Below are positions 11,910 to 26,149 of a stretch of DNA of 64,000 nucleotides, in pieces (positions within the stretch are counted from its first letter, which is position 1; each line of letters opens with the position of its first letter). A program made the translations under genes and the position numbers. The DNA lies in contig NZ_JAFRDR010000001.1 of assembly GCF_017377795.1 (NCBI RefSeq), positions 930,001 through 994,000 of the forward strand, written 5' to 3'. The DNA comes from Williamsia soli (lineage in GTDB: Bacteria; Actinomycetota; Actinomycetes; Mycobacteriales; Mycobacteriaceae). The notes under the pieces are model-generated. The model had not been told where the DNA came from. It did not search any database and was given only the letters and a program-made list of their open reading frames with translations.

Positions 11910-12133
11910 GACGCCATCGCGGAAAAGTCGACTACCTCGCCTGCGCGCCTGAGGCGGAGGGCGACCGAATAGACGGTGGGCAGCGCGGCGAGCAGCGTGT
12001 CGTCGTTGTCGCCGGAGGACATCATCTGTTCATCGTGCGACCTGAGCGCGAGGAGCCCTGGGGTAGCCCACTACTCGAAAACAGGTAGTGCACTACGCGC
12101 GCCCACGCTGCTCGGCGCTGCCACGATCGAAAC

Positions 12134-13978
12134 ATGGTCGAGGTCGGTCGGGTTTGGGTTGATCGTGTCCATTGCGCTGTCGGCGCAGTGGCAGAACTCG
12201 GCGAGCCCGCCGACGATCAGCGGGTGCGCCAGATGGTCGGGGCACGGTTCGCCTCTCGATTCGACGATCAGGCTCGTTTGTACGAGCAGCAGGAGCCGAC
12301 CTGGCATCGACAGGTCCGGGCCGCCATCGACGAGCTCGTCGGCGCCGGTCTGGTCGTGAGTCATCCGGGAGAGGCTGATACGCGCGCGGTGTGGATGCTC
12401 ACCGAGCATGGTCGTGACTCCCTCGCCGACGCCGAGACGCGGGCGCAGGCCGTTCCCGAACGTGCGCTGTCACCGGCCGCGACAGGACCCGCCGATCGCA
12501 ACCCCGTACTCGCCGGCGTGTTGACCCCTGCCTTGCGCCAGATGTTCGTCGACGCTTCCGACGCGGTGCCGCCTCGCACCCGAGCGAGCCGATGGCCGAT
12601 CATGATCGAGCTGAACCTGCGTTTCCGTTCGGGCCCGAACGGTGCGATGGACCGGATCAAGTCGCTGTGGAAATACATCGGCGGACAAGGCGAACCGTTC
12701 CTCTTGGCAGACGAGTACGCCGCCGGTGATCTGACCACCGGTCAGATCGAAGGCCTCGTCTCCGCGGACTGCGCTGCGGGCGCATGGGAGGATCGCGCCG
12801 TATACCGGATCTGGCCTGACTTCGAGGTGCATCCGCAGATCGATGTGTCGGCAACGACGATCAAGGCGCAGGCGGCTCATCGTGCCTTCAACAGTTTCGG
12901 AGACGGCATCGTCTGGGCGGTGGTCGATTCAGGAGTACAGGCCGACCACCCGCATTTCGTCGGGTACGAGACCCTGACCCACGGATCGGTGCGAGACCTG
13001 CACCGCGACTTCACGATCGAGAGCAACGACCCCGCAACCGCGCTGCAGGACGAACTCGGTCACGGGACACACGTGGCCGGGGTCATCGCAGGCGGTCTCG
13101 AATACTGGGCCGACGACCAGCACACCCCGCTGGTCACCGAACAACGGTTCAACGTCGCGGCCGGTGACTATCCGATCACCCAACCCCGTGAGGTGGGTGA
13201 CCCCCGAAAGCTGGCAGGCATGGCCCCCGCCGCACGGCTCGTCAGCCTCAAGGTACTGGCGAGCGGGGATCCCACGACGCGGGTCACCCGCGTGATCCGG
13301 GCGCTGGCCTACGTCAGGGAATTGAACGCATCAAGCGACAAGCTGCCGCGTATCCACGGCGTCAACCTCAGTCTCGGTTATGAGTTCGACCCCGAATGGT
13401 TCGCATGCGGTCGCAGCCCGCTCTGTCTGGAGGTCGACAAACTCGTCCGCTCCGGCGTGGTCGTGGTGGCTGCGTCGGGCAACTCGGGCTACGTGACGCT
13501 GGCACCGGGAAAGTCGATGGTGACGAAGTTCAGTGCGGCCATGACGATCAACGATCCCGGAAACGCTGCGCGGGCGATCACGGTGGGCTCGACGCATCGA
13601 GATGCCCCACACACCTTTGGCATCTCCTACTTTTCGTCCCGCGGGCCAACCGGTGACGGCAGGTGCAAGCCCGACCTGGTCGCGCCCGGTGAACGCATCA
13701 CCTCAGCGGCCGCCGGTGCCATGTTGCAACCCGTCCTCAACGCACATCCCGAGGGACTCGACGGTCGCGCGGTGTATGTGGAGGACAGCGGCACCAGTAT
13801 GGCTGCGCCCCACGTATCGGGCGCGATCGCCGCGTTCCTGTCCGTACAGAAAGAGTTCATCGGCAAGCCCGAGGAGATCAAGAAGATCTTCGTCGACTCG
13901 GCGACACCGCTCGGTCGCGACCGCGCCTTCGAGGGTGGCGGCCTGCTGGATCTGATGCGCGCACTCCAATCAGTTTGA
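12134..13978 (+). CDS. Cytoplasmic-type subtilisin with N-terminal winged-helix domain
   Basis: This 614-aa S8 serine peptidase has the full triad: Asp in AVVDSGVQADHP, His in GHGTHVAGVIAGG, and Ser in GTSMAAPHVSGAIAAFL, plus the oxyanion Asn in AASGNSG. The first 100 residues resemble an Mrr_N-like winged helix (PTWHRQVRAAIDELVGAGLVV, then WMLTEHGR), which is unusual on a subtilisin. Residues 120-230 form a linker domain with MIELNLRFRSGPNGAMDRIKSLW. There is no signal peptide, so it should work inside the cell or leave by an unusual route. It is the first gene of a six-gene operon; 25 bases separate it from the hydrolase gene. Confidence 0.9.
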   Translation: MVEVGRVWVDRVHCAVGAVAELGEPADDQRVRQMVGARFASRFDDQARLYEQQEPTWHRQVRAAIDELVGAGLVVSHPGEADTRAVWMLTEHGRDSLADAETRAQAVPERALSPAATGPADRNPVLAGVLTPALRQMFVDASDAVPPRTRASRWPIMIELNLRFRSGPNGAMDRIKSLWKYIGGQGEPFLLADEYAAGDLTTGQIEGLVSADCAAGAWEDRAVYRIWPDFEVHPQIDVSATTIKAQAAHRAFNSFGDGIVWAVVDSGVQADHPHFVGYETLTHGSVRDLHRDFTIESNDPATALQDELGHGTHVAGVIAGGLEYWADDQHTPLVTEQRFNVAAGDYPITQPREVGDPRKLAGMAPAARLVSLKVLASGDPTTRVTRVIRALAYVRELNASSDKLPRIHGVNLSLGYEFDPEWFACGRSPLCLEVDKLVRSGVVVVAASGNSGYVTLAPGKSMVTKFSAAMTINDPGNAARAITVGSTHRDAPHTFGISYFSSRGPTGDGRCKPDLVAPGERITSAAAGAMLQPVLNAHPEGLDGRAVYVEDSGTSMAAPHVSGAIAAFLSVQKEFIGKPEEIKKIFVDSATPLGRDRAFEGGGLLDLMRALQSV

Positions 13979-14003
13979 CACCGTTCCCACGAGAGGATCT
14001 GCA

Positions 14004-15353
14004 ATGTTGTGGACGTTGACCTACGACGCCGACGGCCATCCCGCCCCGGGGTCCGTACCGAACCTGATCACGAACATCCGGGAGTCGGGGATCCGCGATC
14101 TGGTGGTGTTCTCGCATGGTTGGAACAACGGCGCGCAGCAGGCGACGTCGCTGTACGAGCGGTGGTTCGGGTTGTTGCGGCCCCACCTGGACGTCGCCGC
14201 AAAGGTCGGCTTCGTCGGTCTGTACTGGCCCTCTCAGCTCTGGCGCGACGAGCCGATCCCGGATTTCGAGCCGCCGACCGTCGATGGCGGGGGATCCGCC
14301 GGTGTGGTCACCACGTCGTCGGGCACCGTGCTGACCTCCGAGCTGGACCCCGACATCCTGGCGGACCTCAAAGACCTCTTTCCTGAGCGGGCAAGCAATC
14401 TCGATGCTGTCGCCGGGCTCCTCGCCGTGCCGGTGACCCAGGAGTCGATCGCGGCGCTGTACCGCGAGATCGAAGCGTTCAGCCGGATCGAACCGGACCT
14501 CGACGACGGTGAGAGCGGTTCTGCGCCAACGCTGCCTGGGATGTTCACCGACCATCGCACTCCGACGGAGACATTCGAGTATCTGGCTGACACGATTACG
14601 GCATCCGGGGCGATCATCGACGCCCCGGATGTCGGTGCTGCCGGGCTCCGCGACGTCGGCGCGAAGATCCTGGCAGGGGCCAAGGAGACGCTGAGGCAGG
14701 CGTCCTACTGGCGGATGAAGCAGCGGGCGGGCACGGTGGGCAGCGTGGGCCTGGGCCCGACAGTGAAGCAGCTCGGTTCGGAGTTCCCGGAGCTGCGAAT
14801 CCATTTGGTGGGGCACAGTTTCGGCGGCCGCGTGGTGTCGTTTGCATTGCCCGTACTACCAGAGGGTCAGGCATCTCCCGTCAAGTCCGTCACCCTGTTG
14901 CAGGCGGCGTTCTCCCGGTTCGCGTTCACCGACCAGCTTCCTTTCCGTTCAGGCGCCGGGGCACTGGCCGGGACCCTGAACCGGGTCGACGGTCCGATTT
15001 CGGTGTGCTATTCGAAACACGATCGTGCGCTGGGTACGTTTTATCCGATCGCGAGCATGCTGGGAGGCACAGGTGCCGATGCCGCCGGCGCGACAGACCC
15101 GCTCGCACGATGGCGGGCGATGGGATCGCACGGAGCGCACGGCGTGGTGCCGGCACCGCTCGGCCCGGTCGGGACGACCTACCAGTTCGGGCGCCACGCC
15201 ATCTCGAACTTCGACGCCTCAGAATATGTGGCTCAAGGGAACTCACCCTCAGGGGCTCACAGTGACATCTTCGAACCCACGCTGGCCTGGGTAGTGGCGA
15301 GCGCGATGCTCCTGCCGGTCACGACCTCGACCGATGCTGGGAGGGACATCTGA
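14004..15353 (+). CDS. Alpha/beta hydrolase (lipase/esterase-like), operon member
   Basis: This 449-aa protein has an alpha/beta hydrolase fold with LVVFSHGWNNG as the oxyanion segment, HLVGHSFGGRVV carrying the nucleophile Ser, YSKHDRALG as a possible acid Asp, and a C-terminal GAHSDIF with a candidate His. A helical insertion of about 150 residues separates the first strand region from the nucleophile. No signal peptide is visible. A ribosome site (GAGAGG) precedes the ATG. Its TGA overlaps the ATG of the LysM gene by one base (TGATG), so translation is coupled. The substrate is unknown. Confidence 0.85.
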   Translation: MLWTLTYDADGHPAPGSVPNLITNIRESGIRDLVVFSHGWNNGAQQATSLYERWFGLLRPHLDVAAKVGFVGLYWPSQLWRDEPIPDFEPPTVDGGGSAGVVTTSSGTVLTSELDPDILADLKDLFPERASNLDAVAGLLAVPVTQESIAALYREIEAFSRIEPDLDDGESGSAPTLPGMFTDHRTPTETFEYLADTITASGAIIDAPDVGAAGLRDVGAKILAGAKETLRQASYWRMKQRAGTVGSVGLGPTVKQLGSEFPELRIHLVGHSFGGRVVSFALPVLPEGQASPVKSVTLLQAAFSRFAFTDQLPFRSGAGALAGTLNRVDGPISVCYSKHDRALGTFYPIASMLGGTGADAAGATDPLARWRAMGSHGAHGVVPAPLGPVGTTYQFGRHAISNFDASEYVAQGNSPSGAHSDIFEPTLAWVVASAMLLPVTTSTDAGRDI

Positions 15354-18300
15354 TGGCTCACGACTACACCGTCGTTCCCGGTGACACCCTATGGGCCATC
15401 GCCACCCGCTTCTACGGGCGCGGCGAGCTGTTTCCGGTGATCGCCGACGCCAACCGCCTTCCCAATCCCGACCTAATCTTCCCGGGGCAGGTTCTGCACA
15501 TCCCCGATCTGGCTCCGCCGCCGCCGCCGCCACCGCCACCGGAGCCTGTGCCGCCGCCCCCGATCGAGCCGGAAGCTCCTCCGGAGCCCATCGACTTCCA
15601 GCTGCTCCGACCCGCGGACCTGGTCGATCTCGCCTGCACCGCATCCGGTTTCAGGGTCGAGACTCCGAGTCCACCGCACGCCCCGCCACCGCCTCCGCCC
15701 GGCGAAGTGCGGTACACGGTGGTCCCGGGCGACACCCTCTGGGACATCGCAGGCCGCTTCTACGGCGACCCGCGACGGTATCCCGAGATCGTGGCAGCCA
15801 ACGGAATCGGAAATCCTGATCTGATCTTTCCCGGGCAGGTGTTCCTCATCCCGGGGATCGCGGGACCACCCGGGCCGACTCCCGCGATCCCGGTTGTCGA
15901 CCCGACCAGGCATCTGCGTGCGGTGACCGACGACGCGCACATCGTCGTCCGTTTCGGCCCCCAGAACGTCTTCGAGGTCGCGGCAGATACGGTCACGCCC
16001 ACTCGGATCCTGGCCGCGAAGGAATCGAGGGTCGTCTTCCAGGTCCCGTCCGGTACCCGCATCGAGTTCACGACGGTAGGCATCCTCCGGGTGCTGCCAC
16101 TTCTGAAACTCGCCGTGTCACCCTCTGCGACACCGCGACCCGACCCAGCTGACATCCCGGTCGAGGTACCCGACAAACCTGCCCAGCTGACAGATCGGGA
16201 CACCGCCATCGAGGCACCCTTCCGGCTGGTTGTGTCACCGAGTTCTCGCGGCGCATTCACGCACTCCGCAGAACCCGTTGCCGCGCCGGGTGATCCGCAT
16301 CGGATCGAGCTCTGGACCACCCGGCTCGCGGTGCGTCGCGAAGTCGACGGCCAACTCGTCGGCATCGATCGCCTCGATCAGACCCAGCGCATCGTCCGCG
16401 CGCTCCACACGCGAAACGACCAGGCGCCGCCCGAAGCCGAACCCACGGGATCGCTGACGTCGGCGCATCGACGGAACATCGTCGAGCTGACCTCTCATCG
16501 CGTCGACGGCGTCGAGCCCGAACCCCTGTCGGTCCGGACGTTCGCGCTCAGTGCCGTCGGCGCCTGGATCGACTGGTCCGCGTCGTGGGCGGCGACTGCG
16601 GCCAACAAGCTTCTGGCTTACCGGCACCTCGCACCCATGGGCCGGGACGCGTACGTCAGGGTCGACGAGCCAGGACTGCTCTATCCGTTCGGACACCGCG
16701 CCACGCGAGTCATCATCACCGAACGGCAGATCGCACCAGGCCCGGATCCGGTGGCCCGGCTGATCAAGCGAATGTTCATCGTGGTGCGAGAACCCTCGCG
16801 CAGGTACACCGGCAAGGCCAGCTCCGCTCCTTTCGCGATGCCTTTCACCGACCTCGCCGTGCGGCCGCTTGTCACGCCCGACATCCGACTTGACACCGGG
16901 CCGCGGCCCTTTGTCGCGGAGATCGAGGGTGTGGGCAGTTTCCGGTGGCGGGTGACCGGTATCGATCATGCGGGGCGGGCCATCGCCATCGAGACCCCCC
17001 TTGTCTTCGTGCCACTTCTCGATGTCGACACCGACCGGGAGTTCGCGGCGTTGATGACACCGGCCGCGGAGAAGTGGAACGGGGTCCGCTCCGAGCTCAC
17101 CGTTCTGAACAAGTCCGTTGCCATGGCACCGCCGAGCACCGCCGGCGATACGACGTTCCAGGTCGAGGGACTCACCTTCGCCGCGGACTTCGACGCCACC
17201 GACCAGTTCGTGGCACCCCGGGTGGAGCAGTCCCAGCTCGTGATCCCGGCGCTGAGCGCGCTCAATGGCGGCAACGCACCGGTGTCGGTGGAATATGAGC
17301 CACGATTTCGAGCCCAGGGGTTCAGCGGACCGGCGGAAGTGTTCCTCACCCTGACCGGGCCGCAGGTGCTCGACTTCGGGGGCAACAGCAGCGAGAGCGG
17401 AGGCTTCGTACAGCCGAACGTCACCGTTGACGCGATCTCACGGACTCTCGGAGCCATCGGCGACAAGGACGTTGCCGCCGGAAGCCCGCTGGCCGCCGGC
17501 ACCTTCGACCCAGCGGCATTCCTGGGCAACGCGGGGCCGAAATTGTTCGGGATGTTCGGTCTGCTCGAGCTGATCGCCGACGGGACCGGCCTTGAGAGAG
17601 CACCAGAACTTGTGAGTGAAGCGCTCGATGTGGTCAGTGGACTGCGGTCGGAGCACCAGCGGTTGACAGTCGCGCTCGACCGATTGTCTGCGCAGGTGAA
17701 CGCCGAGATTGTCAAGGCGACCCACGGTGGCGCCACCGCACAGTTACAGACGCTGCTGGGGGACGTCGACCATGTACGTGGTCAGATCGTGGGCGCTGCA
17801 GACAGATTGGCCGACGCTTTCGACGGCGTCCTGACAGGAGTCGACGGCAGTGCCGCGACGGCGGTTGCCGAAGCGGCAGTGCTTGCCGGCGTGCTGGACC
17901 AGGTCCAGGATCTCGTAGCGAACCCGGCGTTGCCCGCCGCGGCTCGATCGTTGATCGAACGACCGGCGAATGCGCTCCGGCAGATCACCGTGACGGCGAA
18001 CGATCCGACATTGGCTGCGGTCCTGACCTCGCTGCGCACCGGGGTGGTGCGTTTCGAGTGGCAACCCGAACTCGAACCCTGGCCGGTTGGTTCCGACGAG
18101 AACAACGCTGTGTTCTTCCCGTCGCGCCAGGGGCTGACGATCAGCGTCGAAGTCCGGGCCGGTGACCAACCCCGCGCCGACGTCAGTGCGCAACTGACCG
18201 ACTTCACGCTTGCGCTGTTGCCGGGCGCCCGCCTGATCTCGATGCGATTCAGCCGCATCGGGTTTCGCACATCGACCGGTCGGAAACCCGAGATCGACGT

Positions 18301-19045
18301 GGTCTTCGACGGCATGAAGTTCGAGGGGCCGCTGGAGTTCATCGAGAAACTCCGCGAGGTCATCCCGTTCGACGGGTTCTCCGATCCGCCGTTCGTCGAC
18401 GTGTCGACCAACGGCGTCAAAGCCGGGTTCGAATTGGCGCTGCCCTCGATTCCACTCGGGATCTTCAGTCTGGAGAACATCGCCCTGTACGCGGACTGTC
18501 ACGTGCCGTTCCTCGACCAAGCAGTGACCGTCGGGTTCGGATTCTGCAAGAAGGAGGCGCCGTTCCGCCTCACCGTGATGGCGATCGGCGGCGGTGGCTG
18601 GGTCGGTATTCGGCTCAGCCCCAAGGGTTTGGTGCTGCTGGAGATGGGGTTGGAGGCCGGCGCTGCACTCAGCCTCGACTTCGGGGTCGCGTCCGGGTCG
18701 GTGTCGGTGATGATCGGCATCTACCTGCGACTGGAAGGTGACGAGGGCAAGCTGACCGCCTACTTCCGGATTCGCGGAGAGGTCGATGTGCTCGGCCTTG
18801 CTTCGGCCTCGCTGACGCTGGAGTTGTCACTGACCTACGACACCGCGACCGGCAAACTCGTCGGCCGCGCCAGTCTGGTGATCGAGGTCGAGGTGCTGTT
18901 CTTCTCGGCGTCGGTGGAGGTGACCGTCGAGCGTCGCCTGGCCGGGTCCAGGGGTGACCCGAGCTTACGAGACATCATGCCGCCCGATTCCGGCGGCGAC
19001 GTCATGTGGGACAACTACTTCGGCGCATTCGCACTAGGAGCATGA
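15353..19045 (+). CDS. Large double-LysM protein of unknown function, 1230 aa
   Basis: The protein starts with a LysM domain (YTVVPGDTLWAIATRFYG, residues 5-50), a Pro-rich linker with nine consecutive Pro, and a second LysM domain (YTVVPGDTLWDIAGRFYG, about 123-170). The other roughly 1060 residues are unfamiliar: beta-rich stretches, a likely coiled coil around 745-850 (RSEHQRLTVALDRLSAQV), and a C-terminal segment of alternating hydrophobic strands (GSVSVMIGIYLRLEGDEGKL) that looks like a beta-barrel or beta-helix. LysM binds peptidoglycan or chitin, but there is no signal peptide. It sits between the hydrolase gene and the 1506-aa orphan gene, only 3 bases from the latter. Confidence 0.88.
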   Translation: MAHDYTVVPGDTLWAIATRFYGRGELFPVIADANRLPNPDLIFPGQVLHIPDLAPPPPPPPPPEPVPPPPIEPEAPPEPIDFQLLRPADLVDLACTASGFRVETPSPPHAPPPPPPGEVRYTVVPGDTLWDIAGRFYGDPRRYPEIVAANGIGNPDLIFPGQVFLIPGIAGPPGPTPAIPVVDPTRHLRAVTDDAHIVVRFGPQNVFEVAADTVTPTRILAAKESRVVFQVPSGTRIEFTTVGILRVLPLLKLAVSPSATPRPDPADIPVEVPDKPAQLTDRDTAIEAPFRLVVSPSSRGAFTHSAEPVAAPGDPHRIELWTTRLAVRREVDGQLVGIDRLDQTQRIVRALHTRNDQAPPEAEPTGSLTSAHRRNIVELTSHRVDGVEPEPLSVRTFALSAVGAWIDWSASWAATAANKLLAYRHLAPMGRDAYVRVDEPGLLYPFGHRATRVIITERQIAPGPDPVARLIKRMFIVVREPSRRYTGKASSAPFAMPFTDLAVRPLVTPDIRLDTGPRPFVAEIEGVGSFRWRVTGIDHAGRAIAIETPLVFVPLLDVDTDREFAALMTPAAEKWNGVRSELTVLNKSVAMAPPSTAGDTTFQVEGLTFAADFDATDQFVAPRVEQSQLVIPALSALNGGNAPVSVEYEPRFRAQGFSGPAEVFLTLTGPQVLDFGGNSSESGGFVQPNVTVDAISRTLGAIGDKDVAAGSPLAAGTFDPAAFLGNAGPKLFGMFGLLELIADGTGLERAPELVSEALDVVSGLRSEHQRLTVALDRLSAQVNAEIVKATHGGATAQLQTLLGDVDHVRGQIVGAADRLADAFDGVLTGVDGSAATAVAEAAVLAGVLDQVQDLVANPALPAAARSLIERPANALRQITVTANDPTLAAVLTSLRTGVVRFEWQPELEPWPVGSDENNAVFFPSRQGLTISVEVRAGDQPRADVSAQLTDFTLALLPGARLISMRFSRIGFRTSTGRKPEIDVVFDGMKFEGPLEFIEKLREVIPFDGFSDPPFVDVSTNGVKAGFELALPSIPLGIFSLENIALYADCHVPFLDQAVTVGFGFCKKEAPFRLTVMAIGGGGWVGIRLSPKGLVLLEMGLEAGAALSLDFGVASGSVSVMIGIYLRLEGDEGKLTAYFRIRGEVDVLGLASASLTLELSLTYDTATGKLVGRASLVIEVEVLFFSASVEVTVERRLAGSRGDPSLRDIMPPDSGGDVMWDNYFGAFALGA

Positions 19046-19048
19046 ACC

Positions 19049-22000
19049 ATGGCCACCACCAGATTGATGACCACCGTGCTGCCGCATTCGGTGGCGTCCG
19101 ATGCGGACTTCCACGTATCGCTGTTCTTCACCCACCGGCTCATCCCGGACGGCGCAGCCGCGACCCTCGCCGACTTCCCAGCGCTGATCGATTGGCCCGG
19201 CGCGCTGAGCGGGGCTCAGATCACACTGCGTGTCAACGGTTCGCCGGATCCGATCGCGTGCCGTCCGCTGACGGCGGTGTTGAATCCGGCGGGATGGGCG
19301 GCAGCGTTTCCTGCGACCACGACGGTGACCGGCTTCCCGGCTCCCAAGATCACGCAGGGTGCGCCGTGGCAGTCATTTCCCGCGTCGGCCATGGGCGACC
19401 ACGGTCTCGACGCGCACTACGCCTCGGTGTTCTCCTCGCCCGTGACACCGCCGTCGGTCAGCGACAGTCGTCTCGCGACGGCGGTCCTTGCGTACTGCAG
19501 GAGGATCGACGGCACAGGCCCGTTGCTGGGGGAGTTCACAGCTCACCGCCGCAGTCGCGGCGCCTTTGAGGCCGCGATCGACAAGGCCCGCCGTGACCGG
19601 GCCCGGTCGGTGCGGGATGGCTGCGACTGCACCGACGGCGGCGATCGAGGCCTACAACAACCGGAGTCGTTGCTGTCGACACTGTTCGACCGCAGACCCG
19701 GTGAGCCGTCGGCCTTCGAGACCTTCGATCGCGCGGTGTCGGACCATCTGTCGGGCCTGCTGCGCGGATCTCCCCGTCCGCAGCCACAGGGGCCTGTCGT
19801 CGCACTCGCTCCGGCCGCCGGTCAGGCCGCGCCGGTCGAGCGGATGCTGGTGGACAGCCACGCGAGCGCCGAGTACTACCGACGCCCCGAGGAGTCCGAG
19901 CCGCCGCCGCTCGCGGACGGTGACTCACGACCACGACCGGACAAGCCAGAGGTTGAATTCCATTCGCTGGCAGCCGCCGCGGGCAACACTCCCGCGCTGG
20001 CGCGTCGCCTCGGATTTGTTCTCGACCTCAAGATCGACGATCCGGCGACGTTGGCCGGCGCCATCGAGGTGACCTGTGAGGTGACGATCCCCGGTGTCGA
20101 GAATCTGCTGTCGCCGGTGACCCGATGCGCGGTCGACGGGGATCGGTTCATGGCGACGAATGGCGCCGACGGCCGGTGGGAGAGCGGACTGCTGACGGTC
20201 GGCAGGCCCGAATACCGGGTCCTGGACCTCGACCCCGACGCCGCCGGACTCAAACTCGAACAGCACCTGCGGTCCGCGGCCCGTGCGCAGGCCGCCGAGT
20301 TCAACGGCGATGAGGTGAACTTCGCTCCGGCAACGTTGCGCTCCAATGGTTTCGCGATCGCCAACACCAATCGGGTGACGACCGTGCGCGGGACCGTCGG
20401 CGCAGCGGAGAACCGCAGAACCGACATTCTCGCCTCCACGCCCGGGGTCGCCCCACCGCGGTTCACATTCGGTGAACTCGTCCGGGGCCTGCAGGTGCAG
20501 GTGTGGGATGACCACACCCGGGTGTGGCACAGCCTGCACGAGCGGACCGTGACCGTCGAGGTGAACGGCACGGTGGTGCTCACCGACGTTCCCGACAGCG
20601 GTCTGTTGCAGGGTGCCTCGCCGAGCCGGGTACCAGGTGATCCGGCGAATCCGTACTACTTGCACGAGGTCGTCGCCGGCTGGGACGGGTGGAGTCTGTC
20701 CGCGCCGCGGCCGGGCCGCAGCATCGTCCACGACAGCGGGCAGGGTGTCGATCCGGGCAGTGAGATCCTGACCGACAACGGTCGCGAGGCGACGCCGGGA
20801 TCGTTTGTGGTGCGCAGTTCGCCGCGAGCAGGATCTCTGCCCGCCCTGCGTTACGGACGGCGATACGCATTTCGCGTTCTCGGGGTCGATCTGGCAGGCA
20901 ACGTCGTGTCCCACCCCACTGGCACGATAGCGGCCGACGCCCTGGACCCGGTGGCCGTCGTCACCGCCGAGACCCATGTGCAGACGTTGCGGCAGGAGTT
21001 CGCGGCACGTGATGCCGCCGGATTCTTGGCGTCCCAGCGTTCGGCGACCGATCCGGCGAGCGGCAGCGGTCTCGTCGGCCGGGTCAATGACGCGATGGCA
21101 CGCATCGAAAAGGTCGCCACCAGCTTGAAGATCCGTCCGCAGCTGGACACTCCGGCAACGGACTTCGCGGCACTGTTCGCGCAGTCGGGAGGGCCGGAGA
21201 CGGTCACCACGCCGCGGCTGTTCCTGCGGTGGGATCCGGTCACCGAACCGACGATCGTGCCGCGTCACCGTTTGACGTTCGCTGAATCTTTGAACCGCAT
21301 GGTGATCCGCACGACAGACTCCGGGTCGACCACCACCGAGCGGCACGTGATCCCACCGAAGGTCAGTCAGACCGAAGCTGAACACGGTGGCCGCTTCGAC
21401 GCCCTGATGACCTCGCCGGACCCGGCGTCGCGTCGCCGGGCCTACGCCACGGCATTGCGGGAGCGGGGCAATCTGTTCCACACCTCGGTGCAGGACCTCG
21501 ACGACCCGCTGCGCACCAATCCGGTGCCGTGGCCGGTGCGTTTGGAGTCCGCTCCGACCGTCGACCCCGCCGCGGCGGTGACGTTGGAGCAGTTGCAGCA
21601 CCGCGGTGTGCGTACCGACCCGGCCATGCCGCATCCGAACGACGAGGCCCAGCCCGCGGCGGGACAGTACGTCGTCCACGACACCGACGCGCTGGTGGTG
21701 CCGTACCTCCCCGATCCGATGGCACGAGGCGTCGCGCTCATCTTTTATGAAGCAGGGGCGGATCACCACCTCGCTGATCGACGGATCCTGCAGTCGGTGA
21801 CCATCCCGTACTCGGGGGACTGGCCGGCCGTCGCCGGGCTGCGACTGGTGCTGCACAGCGCCGACACATTGGGCGCCGAGCAGCACGGCAACGAGGTGCG
21901 TATCGGGCTGCCACCAGGGGAGCAGGTCGGTGTTGCGGTGTCGTCGATCATCGACCGGGGGGCGTTGGAGACCCTGGGATTGTGGCGCTTTCATGCCGTC

Positions 22001-23569
22001 CACGACCCCGCGGTGTCAGCGACCGATCGTGCGATCCTCGAGGAGGCCGCAACCGACGGATGGCTGTGGTGGCTCACCCCCAGCACCGACCTGCGTCTGG
22101 TCAATGCGACCACCCGCCCCGCAACGCCGCCGACGATCACAGCCCTGCGGACGAAGCCGCGCGTCCAGGGAGTGCTCGGCGCCGAGATCCTGGGCACCCT
22201 CGACATCCACGGCAGCAGTACCGACAGCGTCGAACTGAGGGCGACCTGGTCGGGGATCGTCGACGACCCGGCACTGCCCGAGCCCGGCGTCGTCAGCGGC
22301 GCCGAGGTCGTCAGCACGTTCCCGGTCGGAGCGCAGGAGACGAGGTCGATCGTGTCGATCGACCAGGCCGTTGGACCGAGGCCGGTCGGGATCCCGGAAC
22401 GTCCGGTGACCCATACGCTGCCGGACACCCGTACCCGGGTGGTGACGTACCGGCTGCACGGATCGTCGCGCTATCGGGAGTTCTTCGAGCCCGCGGAACT
22501 GCCTGCCGCCGACGACCCGGCGTCGGCGGGCAACGGGGTGGAGGTCCGGCATCTGAGTTCGCAGCGACCACCGGCACCCGTCGTCCACGAAGTGCTCCCG
22601 GTGTTCTTCTGGGAGGAACTGAGCGAACCGCAGCACCCGTTTGCCGTACGCCGGATCCGGCACAGCGCGCTGCGCATCTGGTTGGACAGGCCCTGGTTCG
22701 CCAGTGGTGACGGCGAACAACTGGCGGTGATGATCGGCGCGCCGGATGCGCCTGCGGGTCAACGCGACGTGGTGAGTCTGTGGGGGCGTGATCCGGCCGT
22801 GCTGGGTCCGGGTCTCGGGACGGCGACCGAACTCCCGCTGCAGTCGGCGTGGGAAGAACGCGCGTTGGCCCTCGAGGTCGACGTCGAGCGCAGGCCGGGG
22901 CGACCCCATGGCCGCGTAGCCGACCGAGACAACGTCATCGGATACCTGTTCACGCCGGAATACGACGTGACCCGGCGCCGCTGGTTCGTCGACGTACGGT
23001 TTGACGCCGCCGACAAGGCCTGGCCGTTTGTTCGACTCAATGTTGCTCGGTATCAACCGAATGCCGTCGATGACTGCCACTTCTCCTCGGACACCAACAC
23101 CGACTTCGTCCAGCTGCTGCCACAGCGGATCTGCACGCTGAACCGGCCGCACGAGGGGGCGGTCCGGGTCACCGTAAGCGGTACCTTCGCGGTCACCGAC
23201 CTTCCGGGTACCGACGCGGCGGCGGCAGGTCTCCAAGGCGGTTCGGCGACGGTGGCGCGGATGCGGAACAGCAGGCAGGTGCGTGCCAGTCTGCAGACCA
23301 GGGCCGTCGACGCCACCTCGGACCTCGATTGGTCCACCGTGACCAGTGTCGACTGTGACCTCGAAGGTGCCGACCCGCAGTCGTTTGCCGCGAGTTGGAG
23401 TGGTGAGCTGCCGCTTGAGCCCGCGCACCGGCTCGCAACACCGGGTGCCGACACGACGGTTCGCGTATTGCTCGAGGAACACGAGTTGCTACCGACGGAC
23501 GCCGAACCGGGTCAGACCGCACCCCAGAGCATTTCCCGTCTCGTATATGCCGATCATCTGTACCTGTGA
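19049..23569 (+). CDS. Giant orphan protein, 1506 aa
   Basis: I recognise no family. The protein has no signal peptide and no clear membrane helix. It is dominated by predicted beta-strand and loop segments, with an Ig/Fn3-like stretch (LRYGRRYAFRVLGVDLAGNVV) near residue 620, a Cys cluster DGCDCTDGG near 190, and a Trp-rich stretch (GWLWWLTPSTDLRLVN) near 1010. The last 250 residues contain LFTPEYDVTRRRWFVDVRF and a calycin- or beta-sandwich-like pattern. Such size and composition suggest a structural or adhesive protein. It is translated directly after the LysM protein and just before the tyrosinase. Confidence 0.85.
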   Translation: MATTRLMTTVLPHSVASDADFHVSLFFTHRLIPDGAAATLADFPALIDWPGALSGAQITLRVNGSPDPIACRPLTAVLNPAGWAAAFPATTTVTGFPAPKITQGAPWQSFPASAMGDHGLDAHYASVFSSPVTPPSVSDSRLATAVLAYCRRIDGTGPLLGEFTAHRRSRGAFEAAIDKARRDRARSVRDGCDCTDGGDRGLQQPESLLSTLFDRRPGEPSAFETFDRAVSDHLSGLLRGSPRPQPQGPVVALAPAAGQAAPVERMLVDSHASAEYYRRPEESEPPPLADGDSRPRPDKPEVEFHSLAAAAGNTPALARRLGFVLDLKIDDPATLAGAIEVTCEVTIPGVENLLSPVTRCAVDGDRFMATNGADGRWESGLLTVGRPEYRVLDLDPDAAGLKLEQHLRSAARAQAAEFNGDEVNFAPATLRSNGFAIANTNRVTTVRGTVGAAENRRTDILASTPGVAPPRFTFGELVRGLQVQVWDDHTRVWHSLHERTVTVEVNGTVVLTDVPDSGLLQGASPSRVPGDPANPYYLHEVVAGWDGWSLSAPRPGRSIVHDSGQGVDPGSEILTDNGREATPGSFVVRSSPRAGSLPALRYGRRYAFRVLGVDLAGNVVSHPTGTIAADALDPVAVVTAETHVQTLRQEFAARDAAGFLASQRSATDPASGSGLVGRVNDAMARIEKVATSLKIRPQLDTPATDFAALFAQSGGPETVTTPRLFLRWDPVTEPTIVPRHRLTFAESLNRMVIRTTDSGSTTTERHVIPPKVSQTEAEHGGRFDALMTSPDPASRRRAYATALRERGNLFHTSVQDLDDPLRTNPVPWPVRLESAPTVDPAAAVTLEQLQHRGVRTDPAMPHPNDEAQPAAGQYVVHDTDALVVPYLPDPMARGVALIFYEAGADHHLADRRILQSVTIPYSGDWPAVAGLRLVLHSADTLGAEQHGNEVRIGLPPGEQVGVAVSSIIDRGALETLGLWRFHAVHDPAVSATDRAILEEAATDGWLWWLTPSTDLRLVNATTRPATPPTITALRTKPRVQGVLGAEILGTLDIHGSSTDSVELRATWSGIVDDPALPEPGVVSGAEVVSTFPVGAQETRSIVSIDQAVGPRPVGIPERPVTHTLPDTRTRVVTYRLHGSSRYREFFEPAELPAADDPASAGNGVEVRHLSSQRPPAPVVHEVLPVFFWEELSEPQHPFAVRRIRHSALRIWLDRPWFASGDGEQLAVMIGAPDAPAGQRDVVSLWGRDPAVLGPGLGTATELPLQSAWEERALALEVDVERRPGRPHGRVADRDNVIGYLFTPEYDVTRRRWFVDVRFDAADKAWPFVRLNVARYQPNAVDDCHFSSDTNTDFVQLLPQRICTLNRPHEGAVRVTVSGTFAVTDLPGTDAAAAGLQGGSATVARMRNSRQVRASLQTRAVDATSDLDWSTVTSVDCDLEGADPQSFAASWSGELPLEPAHRLATPGADTTVRVLLEEHELLPTDAEPGQTAPQSISRLVYADHLYL

Positions 23570-23583
23570 CCTGGAGGTCCGAC

Positions 23584-25341
23584 ATGCTCACATCAAGTCT
23601 GTTCAGCGGCGATCCACTCCTGGAAGCCATTGCGGCCGACGGGCCGCAACGCATATCGACGGTGCAGAACCGTAACGACCCAGCCGTCGTGAAAGTTCAG
23701 ACCGCACTACTCGATTGGGATCCGGGAGCGCTTCCACTCTTCGGTGCCGACGGTGACTACGGAAGCGAGTCCGCGGGCGCCGTACATCGTTTCAAGCGTG
23801 ACGAACTGTTGGTTCCCGAGCCTGAGATCGTCGATGACGTCGGACCTCGAACCGTTCGCAGGCTGGACGAAATTCGGGTGGCGGTCGAAAGTCCGGCCCC
23901 GCCGCCACCTCCTCCTCCACCGCCTCCACCGCCTCCACCGCCGCCACCGCCGCCACCGCCGCCCCCGACGACTCTGGTGCGGCGCGATGCCTGGCACCTG
24001 TCTGCGGTCGACCAGCGGCATCCGATCCTGACGGCCTACGCGCGGGCCGTCGGCGTTCTCAAGCGCAATGCCGGCACCGATCGCAGGATGTGGTGGTCAC
24101 ACCACACCCAGGTGCACGGGATGACCCCCGATCCGCAGGACGGTCTGCGCAATCAGTGCCAACACTTCTCTTGGTACTTCCTGCCGTGGCACCGGATGTA
24201 TCTCGACCAGTTCGAAAGGGTGTGCCGCGAGATCATCGCCGCCGACCCGCTGACGCCCGATGACATCAAACAGACCTGGGCGCTGCCATATTGGGATTAC
24301 GACCGCCCGGACAGCAACGCCCTTCCGCCCATCTTCCGAATGCCTGATCTCGACGGCGCTCCCAACCCACTGTTCGACGCCGAACGTGCCCCCGGGATGA
24401 ACAGCCTGTCGACCCCGGCGCGGTTGACCCCCGCAGAGACCAGGGCCAGCGGCTGGTTCCGGGCGCGCGACTTCTCTGCTGCTGCGCCTTTCCCCAGTTT
24501 CGGCGGACCGATCACCGGATTCCATCACCTGAACGAGTCGGGCAACCAGATCATGGGGGCACTCGAGAGCACGCCGCACGGCACCGTCCACGGCGCGGTG
24601 GGTGGTGTCAACGGCAAGATGATGGACTTCGATCGTGCGGCGGGCGATCCGATCTTCTGGTTGCACCACTCCAACATCGATCGGTTGTGGGAAGTCTGGC
24701 GCGTCAACACCGGAGCGGGTCGCGATTCCGTCGATACTGCTTTCCTCAACCGCACGTACGGGTTTGCCGACTCCGCGGGTGGGGCGCAGACGGTCGCGGT
24801 CCGTGATGTCGTATCGCCGAGCTCGCGTCCGCACACGTACGAGGACCTGTCTGTACCCTCGTCGGCAGGTGTGGCTCCGGTGAGAGGACTGGCCGTGACC
24901 GAGGACAATCCGCCGCAAACAATTGGCGCCATCGACAATCCGCTCGAGCTCGTGAACGGGATCGCCAACACCGTCGAGCTGTCGATGCCCGACTTCGCCG
25001 CCTTGCAGTTCGACAGCCCTGGACGGGTCTACATCTCCATCGACCACCTGGTCGCCACCGACATACCGGCGACCACCTTCGGCGTCTATGTCGATGACGG
25101 CGGGGACGGCGCCTGGGTGGGTAACCTGCCGCTGTTCGGGCTGGCCGAGTCGATGAGGTCCGATGCCGAGCACGGCCTGAGCTTCACCTTTGAGATAACC
25201 GACATCGTCGAGTCGCTGGTCGCCGCAGGCAACTTCGACCCGAGCCGCCTGGGACTGCGATTCGAACCGATCGGTGAAGCCGGCGACACGGTGGGTATCG
25301 GATCAGTGCAGGTCGGGTCCGTCAGCATCTTGCTCGGCTGA
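23584..25341 (+). CDS. Tyrosinase-family copper oxidase with peptidoglycan-binding-like N-terminus
   Basis: This 585-aa protein has three parts. Residues 20-90 resemble a PG_binding_1 fold (VVKVQTALLDWD, FGADGDYGSESAGAVHRFK). A run of more than 20 Pro follows. The type-3 copper domain then begins near residue 140: QCQHFSWYFLPWHRMYLDQFE supplies CuA histidines, and HGTVHGAVGG with DPIFWLHHSNIDRLW supplies CuB. The last 170 residues resemble the plant-type polyphenol oxidase C-terminal domain. It should oxidise phenols to quinones, which can crosslink or melanise. No signal peptide is visible. A GGAGG site 6 bases before the ATG at 23584 decides the start. Confidence 0.92.
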   Translation: MLTSSLFSGDPLLEAIAADGPQRISTVQNRNDPAVVKVQTALLDWDPGALPLFGADGDYGSESAGAVHRFKRDELLVPEPEIVDDVGPRTVRRLDEIRVAVESPAPPPPPPPPPPPPPPPPPPPPPPPTTLVRRDAWHLSAVDQRHPILTAYARAVGVLKRNAGTDRRMWWSHHTQVHGMTPDPQDGLRNQCQHFSWYFLPWHRMYLDQFERVCREIIAADPLTPDDIKQTWALPYWDYDRPDSNALPPIFRMPDLDGAPNPLFDAERAPGMNSLSTPARLTPAETRASGWFRARDFSAAAPFPSFGGPITGFHHLNESGNQIMGALESTPHGTVHGAVGGVNGKMMDFDRAAGDPIFWLHHSNIDRLWEVWRVNTGAGRDSVDTAFLNRTYGFADSAGGAQTVAVRDVVSPSSRPHTYEDLSVPSSAGVAPVRGLAVTEDNPPQTIGAIDNPLELVNGIANTVELSMPDFAALQFDSPGRVYISIDHLVATDIPATTFGVYVDDGGDGAWVGNLPLFGLAESMRSDAEHGLSFTFEITDIVESLVAAGNFDPSRLGLRFEPIGEAGDTVGIGSVQVGSVSILLG

Positions 25342-25347
25342 ATCGCG

Positions 25348-26061
25348 ATGTCGGCCGGGGCCGTCGCCGCACCCGCCTTTCTCAGGTCGCGGCCGCAGTG
25401 GTCGGTGCTCGCGGCGGTGGTCGTTGCCTGGATCGTGTGGTGCATGCTGGCGATGCGGTCCGGTGGACACGCCGATCACGCTCAGATGCAGTCCTATTCG
25501 ATTGCGGCGGCTCTCGACTCGGGCGCTATGTGGCTCACGATGGTCGTGGCCATGATGCTCCCCGCGACGGTTCCGGCGATTCGGTACGTGGCGTACGCAA
25601 CCAGACGACAGCGTCGGCAGCGGTCGATTCTCTTGTTCACTGCGGGCTTCGTGGCGGTGTGGGTGGTGGTGGGCGTGCCGGTTCTGGGCGTCGTCGAGAT
25701 CATCGGTGGACCCGTCTGGATCGGTGTTCTCGCACTGTCCGCCGCGGCCCTGTACGAGCTCACGCCGCTGAAGCGAAAGGCGCTGCGGCGCTGTCACCGA
25801 ACCCTGCCGATACGATTCGACGGCCGACCAGCCGACCAATCGTGTCTGAGGTTTGGTAGTTACCAGGGCTACTGGTGTGTACACACGTGCGGTCCGGCGA
25901 TGGTCGCGGTGGTCCTCCTCGGACATCCACTACTCGTCACGGCACTCGTGGGCGCGATCGTGTTCGCCGAGCGTGTCCTCGTACGTCCAGACCGCCTACG
26001 GCTGTTCGTGGGATACGTCGGGCTGGCGTATCCCGCAGCCGTGCTGCTCGTCGTGGGTTGA
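25348..26061 (+). CDS. DUF2182 metal-binding-type integral membrane protein
   Basis: This 237-aa protein has about six membrane helices and the DUF2182 hallmarks: MWLTMVVAMMLPATVPAIRYV, YELTPLKRKALRRC, GYWCVHTCGPAMVAVVLLG and FAERVL. The family is described as predicted metal-binding, on the basis of conserved Met/Cys/His. It starts 6 bases after the tyrosinase stop, so it is the last gene of the operon. Copper handling for the tyrosinase is an attractive inference from position; nothing in the sequence proves it. Confidence 0.88.
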   Translation: MSAGAVAAPAFLRSRPQWSVLAAVVVAWIVWCMLAMRSGGHADHAQMQSYSIAAALDSGAMWLTMVVAMMLPATVPAIRYVAYATRRQRRQRSILLFTAGFVAVWVVVGVPVLGVVEIIGGPVWIGVLALSAAALYELTPLKRKALRRCHRTLPIRFDGRPADQSCLRFGSYQGYWCVHTCGPAMVAVVLLGHPLLVTALVGAIVFAERVLVRPDRLRLFVGYVGLAYPAAVLLVVG

Positions 26062-26079
26062 GCGAGGCGCTCATACCCT

Positions 26080-26101
26080 GGCTTTGACAAACAGCAAAGC
26101 C
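26080..26101. terminator. Possible bidirectional terminator between convergent genes
   Basis: GGCTTTG (26080-26086) pairs with CAAAGCC (26095-26101), followed on the plus strand by an A-rich stretch and a second small inverted repeat (AACGC/GCGTT). It lies in the 88-bp gap between two converging genes. Confidence 0.4.
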
Positions 26102-26149
26102 GTGCAAGAAAAACGCTCGGCGTTTGTGGGCCCGCAACAGTCCACTGAT

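Follow-up and report, generated by a model that had tools for sequence, protein, structure and literature searches.

The window analyzed here is a 64,000-nucleotide stretch of Williamsia soli (contig NZ_JAFRDR010000001.1, positions 930,001 to 994,000; genome of 6.07 Mb), in which a sequence-only reading had singled out six tightly packed genes, P0001 to P0006, as parts of one system. We found that the block combines three modules: two adjacent giant genes, a subtilisin-hydrolase pair, and a tyrosinase gene with a PpoB2-type neighbor. The giants, P0003 (family F2) and P0004 (family F1), form a conserved unit that is closely co-inherited in two phyla and undescribed in the libraries searched. 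Co-occurrence across genomes was borne out for the giants but not for the protease, hydrolase, tyrosinase or P0006-like genes; these four rarely occur with the giants, and one conserved six-part system is not what the neighborhoods reveal. As the full set is found only in the window and one other Williamsia genome (G002), it gives no independent support to a six-part machine. Our favored reading, which we hold at even chances, is that F2 and F1 would make a folded surface complex, exported by the twin-arginine translocation (Tat) pathway in some lineages, to which an oxidase and a protease-hydrolase pair would be Williamsia additions.

The gene caller put the pair in the wrong place or overlooked it at several loci (G390, G398, G408a, G056, G220 and part of G287), and we therefore counted family members by profile searches of open reading frames (ORFs). 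Among 396 genomes of the phylum, the F1 profile matched 12, the window's own genome included, and a 19-row F2 profile built from loci found beside F1 matched those 12 and one more, G150. When only the window proteins served as queries, full-length matches to P0003 and to P0004 came from the same 3 of 61 relatives, and 11 plasmid records matched F1 and 14 matched F2, ten being common to both. Nine of these ten shared records were examined as loci, the tenth being a second C. metallidurans; the locus counts leave out five plasmid records with a single gene and one Ensifer match. Wherever both genes lay on one contig (23 of 23 loci), F2 was directly upstream of F1 on the same strand. The gap was -4 to 42 bases in 22 of these loci and 15 by annotation in Sinorhizobium, where the profile did not reach the F1 start and the automatic value was therefore 939. 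Hosts of the pair belong to the Actinobacteriota and the Alpha- and Betaproteobacteria, with copies on plasmids and chromosomes; one further pair lies in an IMG/VR contig, and two further F1 matches are fragments at contig ends. Distances within F1 correlate with those within F2 (r 0.93 over 20 loci; leaving out G002 and G003, 0.87; p 0.0001 in both cases), a correlation partly owed to common descent of the host lines. From the adjacency, the gene order, the correlated distances and the spread over phyla, we infer that F2-F1 moved as a unit between species. Clustering of the neighbors in 16 stretches (plasmid loci excluded) found no third gene common to the pair.

Some copies depart from this pattern. 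G150 may hold a remote version of the giant pair (L131:6455-15277): its F2 match covers the C-terminal part only (E 1.4e-15), the giant beside that match fits columns 255-618 of the F1 profile (E 2e-9), and the other giant had no F2 match in profile comparison. In R. ruizarguesonis TP23 the annotation divides F2 between two genes (L077:17236-21478), and in G287 it falls into two ORFs, so that some copies look broken. A small protein of ~300 amino acids (aa) follows F1 in both G225 and G424 (L060:15245-16198 and L062); its C-terminus is cysteine-rich, and one of the two has a proline run.

The sequence-only reading regarded both giants as orphans. Both are indeed large, and P0004 has no Pfam match at E up to 1 and no match in the libraries searched; P0003 is less of an orphan, as it carries two LysM domains (Pfam 1e-25, residues 5-51 and about 121-167) ahead of the conserved F2 core (about 181-1230, with a helical part at about 760-890) and shares in the weak coil-type Pfam matches of F2 members (Apolipoprotein in 2 of 19, best E 5e-5, and others), which we set aside. 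We likewise set aside a PG_binding_1 match below cut-off inside the F1 of Streptomyces nigrescens. PHROGs, PADLOC and NCBIfam were run on the window proteins, NCBIfam also on 19 F2 and, among F1, on P0004 only; NCBIfam and PHROGs gave further matches on the protease, LysM and tyrosinase portions. Profile searches of the PDB with F1 and F2 returned no chain at E up to 10. LysM was present on 3 of 19 F2, all from Williamsia, and judged by its distribution it is an addition of that genus.

In part of the family, other features may point outward: Tat signals, a TatA neighbor and CWB2 repeats. Under a rule of our own, applied to as many as 300 residues ahead of the F2 core and to the first 80 residues of controls, a Tat-like N-terminus was present at 6 of 23 F2 loci versus 13 of 673 other gene-caller proteins (Fisher 1.3e-5), and in 0 of 25 F1 ORFs; the F2 of G220 appears Tat-like by eye, yet fails the rule. 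Streptomyces sp. NBC_01334 is one of the lineages with a Tat-like signal. In G304, F2 has a Tat-like start and F1 carries three CWB2 stretches at its end (E 1.8e-46). In Sinorhizobium pC, F1 is followed after 49 bases by a TatA-family gene (PF02416, E 2.4e-9). Within the giants, beta amphipathicity was highest at F2 1066-1200 (z 5.15 versus shuffles), the other eight P0003/P0004 segments tested reaching at most 2.03. The TatA-family gene (L085:28772-28939) is carried by a Sinorhizobium meliloti plasmid typed as conjugative and lies near type IV secretion genes.

In the reading that we favor, F2 and F1 would be two subunits of one large complex that folds in the cytoplasm. A Tat signal on F2 would, in some lineages, take this complex across the membrane, with the signal-less F1 carried out bound to F2 in the manner of a hitchhiker. 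The surface anchor would be lineage-specific, LysM on F2 in Williamsia and CWB2 repeats on F1 in G304, and the amphipathic beta region at the C-terminus of F2 could provide a hydrophobic face for packing or ligand binding. In Williamsia, P0005, loaded with copper by a PpoB2-type chaperone, would oxidize phenols at the complex, and this version might be released on lysis.

Several results weigh against this reading. The range of the Tat search favored F2, and with the limit set at 80 residues from the ORF start, 5 of 23 F2 qualify; the controls (675 proteins minus two F2 matches) were not de-duplicated and count G016 twice. The rule fails at 17 of 23 F2 loci, all three Williamsia among them, and inspection by eye revealed no other export signal in the F2 lacking a Tat signal, so that most F2 may act in the cytoplasm. 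AlphaFold, run on F2 181-1230 with four sequences as input, gave a mean pLDDT (predicted local distance difference test) of 35 and no usable structure. Only the helical part (about P0003 760-890) came near or above 70, and the long strands predicted at F2 1066-1200 are not relied on because pLDDT there is below 50. As to linkage, an F2 profile built from F1-adjacent loci makes the search lean towards paired F2, and some plasmid records had a match to just one of the two giants, four to F2 and one to F1 (E 1e-7 to 3e-4). Finally, since the six-gene set is confined to two close genomes, the link to the oxidase may be accidental.

The six ORFs were confirmed in position and strand (Table 1). Their gaps, in order from P0001 to P0006, are 25, -1, 3, -4 and 6 bases; the sequence-only reading had given a range of -1 to 25, of which the upper end stands and the lower end becomes -4. 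P0005 starts with GTG, with an alternative ATG at 23584. Promoter and terminator scans yielded signals no better than chance, at or below it. The complete set recurs in G002, with proteins 88-96% identical to the window's, and this recurrence makes the operon an observation beyond chance. No composition of this kind had been known to the sequence-only reading, and none was found in the literature searched, mostly papers outside subscription.

Table 1. Features of the accessory block, in window positions.
Feature	Coordinates	Strand	Length	Description
Accessory insert	11911-26149			Both flanks align to G007
Start of divergent reading frame, truncated	11938-12025	-		Intact as three ORFs (G002_18-20) in G002
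P0001	12134-13978	+	614 aa	S8 subtilisin-like protease; N-terminal winged-helix-like part
P0002	14004-15353	+	449 aa	Alpha/beta-hydrolase-like, GHSFGG motif
P0003 (family F2)	15353-19045	+	1230 aa	Two LysM, proline linkers, F2 core
P0004 (family F1)	19049-23569	+	1506 aa	Orphan; constant F2 neighbor
P0005	23566-25341	+	591 aa	N-terminal PG_binding_1-like module (by likeness to relatives), proline linker, tyrosinase/polyphenol oxidase, DUF7868
P0006	25348-26061	+	237 aa	PF09948 (PpoB2) membrane protein

The six-gene block is an insert in a variable site. It spans 14.2 kb in the window; in G007, where gene order is conserved on both sides, the flanking genes are only 91 bases apart. The giants are present in 3 of 9 Williamsia genomes: the window's, G002 and W. 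faeni (G003). Such a layout would also be expected of a plain genomic mosaic, in which three unrelated modules share a variable insertion site and are co-transcribed by chance; every module does occur elsewhere without the others, and at this site G007 has no insert and G001 a different large protein. We nonetheless think a mosaic unlikely, given the tight spacing, the overlapping start and stop codons and the frames kept open in two genomes. A protein with a P0005-like N-terminus (284 aa; 30% identity, E 3e-5) also follows the giants in W. faeni, 87 bases downstream, and has a PG_binding_1 match below cut-off. The large protein of G001 (L154:4920-8336), 1138 aa in place of the operon, has M6 peptidase and CARDB matches, both below cut-off. 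At the other edge of the block, window 11938-12186 aligns to G002 at 96.8%; G002_18-20, divergent from the operon, appear by eye to resemble a LuxR-type ATPase regulator.

The subtilisin assignment of P0001 was upheld (Pfam Peptidase_S8 5e-39; DSG 265, HGTHV 310, GTSMAAP 553), with a weak Mrr_N match below cut-off in its N-terminal part. P0002 has weak alpha/beta-hydrolase matches, none over cut-off (best E 0.007), and a GHSFGG at 270; these motifs, like those of P0005 below, we take to be active-site motifs. Homologues of P0001 are 88-89% identical in G002, 65% in G035 and 56% in G056, and P0001- and P0002-like genes are neighbors in G035, G054 and G056, all three without F1. The subtilisin and hydrolase pair occurs in other genera without giants (L125:9129-12338, L127:9339-12551), and the W. 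faeni genome gave no protease, hydrolase or tyrosinase match despite its giants. Two candidate identities for P0001 were rejected. A Type VII mycosin was ruled out at 73.9 bits for TIGR03921 against a cut-off of 278.75. For the IetAS anti-phage system, PADLOC returned on the window proteins only subtilase and IetS matches, both to P0001, the IetS match covering its S8 region only; the NCBIfam IteS score was 47 of 900 bits. IetS works with an ATPase partner, and the neighbor P0002 is hydrolase-like.

P0005 is a tyrosinase, as had been read (PF00264, 2.5e-32; His motifs FLPWHR 205, HGTVHG 338 and WLHHSN 365), followed by DUF7868 (1.8e-12). Its best PDB matches by E-value were hemocyanins, presumably of the molluscan group, then 8b74_A (a 466-residue chain named "Oxidoreductase"; residues 186-578), polyphenol oxidases and tyrosinases. 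Wall-binding-like domains had been claimed for two of the six proteins: LysM on P0003 bears this out, and P0005, with no Pfam peptidoglycan-binding match of its own, would have a peptidoglycan (PG)-binding-like module because its relatives G028 and G016_04 match PG_binding_1 over cut-off. The polyproline linkers described for P0003 and P0005 are visible as proline runs. The gene for P0006, 6 bases downstream, encodes a "PpoB2 copper chaperone" (PF09948, 7.6e-31), a family that we take to be the former DUF2182. Near-full-length P0005 matches among the 61 relatives were limited to G000, G002 and G028 (39%). A tyrosinase gene adjoins a P0006-like gene in G026, and G026 and G028 are both without F1. 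The W. faeni stretch that was fetched holds no P0006-like gene, the rest of that genome not having been searched for P0006.

The sequence-only reading proposed that these proteins act as a single assembly associated with the wall, the giants being processed by the subtilisin and crosslinked by the tyrosinase. A shared operon, the active-site motifs, LysM on P0003 and the PG-binding-like module on P0005 are compatible with it. We nevertheless judge it highly improbable: the protease-hydrolase pair stands without F1 in three genomes, and blastp over 15 other locus stretches (no plasmid loci) placed P0001-, P0002-, P0005- and P0006-like genes beside the giants only in G002.

No N-terminal signal was visible by eye in the first five proteins, in agreement with the sequence-only reading. 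For Williamsia this would suit a particle that stays inside the cell or is released on lysis, remotely resembling a contractile-injection baseplate or part of a tailocin, with the enzymes as cargo. Tail and hub matches fall on the LysM of P0003 (phrog_8272 E 2e-15, phrog_46 E 3e-6, Phage_tail_X E 0.01), residues 767-877 have a weak baseplate-hub match (phrog_184, E 8e-5), and PG-binding-like modules sit on differing partners (P0005, G003_11, G016_04). However, the strong tail matches are all to LysM, a common domain; a Pfam scan of 10 window neighbors, 2 of them matchless, turned up no sheath, tube, spike or baseplate family, and 50,697 phage records contained no match. Together with the Tat-like signals on other F2, these results make a particle of this kind improbable in our judgment.

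Returning to the surface complex, a more detailed version may be put forward tentatively: a widely transferred two-component giant complex that some lineages would export by Tat as a heterodimer, its anchors differing between lineages (LysM, CWB2) and its enzyme cargo exchangeable and docked through PG-binding-like modules. The cargo may be the copper oxidase in the window and another C-terminal domain in W. faeni. Being ~8 kb long, rare, co-inherited in two phyla and mostly matchless, F2-F1 is likely to be an unnamed machine, of which the Williamsia insert offers a testable example with an attached enzyme of known chemistry.

Among known systems, the closest counterpart of P0005-P0006 is ppoB1-ppoB2 of Marinomonas mediterranea, where, according to excerpts of PMC2855505, a tyrosinase gene forms an operon with that of a COG5486 membrane protein. 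A tyrosinase domain and an adjacent PF09948 protein are present in the window too, and by analogy with the PpoB1/PpoB2 division of labor P0006 is probably the copper chaperone for P0005. In contrast to PpoB1, P0005 adds a PG-binding-like module, a proline linker and DUF7868, and the two genes lie downstream of two giants and a protease-hydrolase pair.

For the giants, we compared clusters of four adjacent giant orphans with DUF6603 in G016 (L130, L133), G166 (L137) and G109 (L138-L140). These are likewise rare, adjacent giant orphans of the window's phylum, PF20248 being present in 2 of 149 genomes, and in the G016 cluster a P0005-like PG-binding module precedes an SLT lysozyme-like domain. 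They belong to other families, however, matching neither the F1 nor the F2 profile at E 1e-3, and PF20248 matched neither P0003 (E up to 1) nor anything in genome G000. Homology of F2 to DUF6603 is unproven, with a profile score of 37.6 versus 38.1 for a reversed control, while 59 column shuffles did not equal its score. The literature searched held no paper on DUF6603.

The export step of our favored reading resembles that of the aldehyde oxidoreductase PaoABC of E. coli, a Tat hitchhiker (PMC4273604), and Tat export of partners lacking a signal has been described for other complexes. F2 and F1 differ from PaoABC in having no recognized cofactor domain, and most F2 are without a signal. The likeness is that a subunit with a Tat signal, F2, would carry a partner without one, F1; a signal on one giant and none on the other would make the pair a very large Tat hitchhiker.

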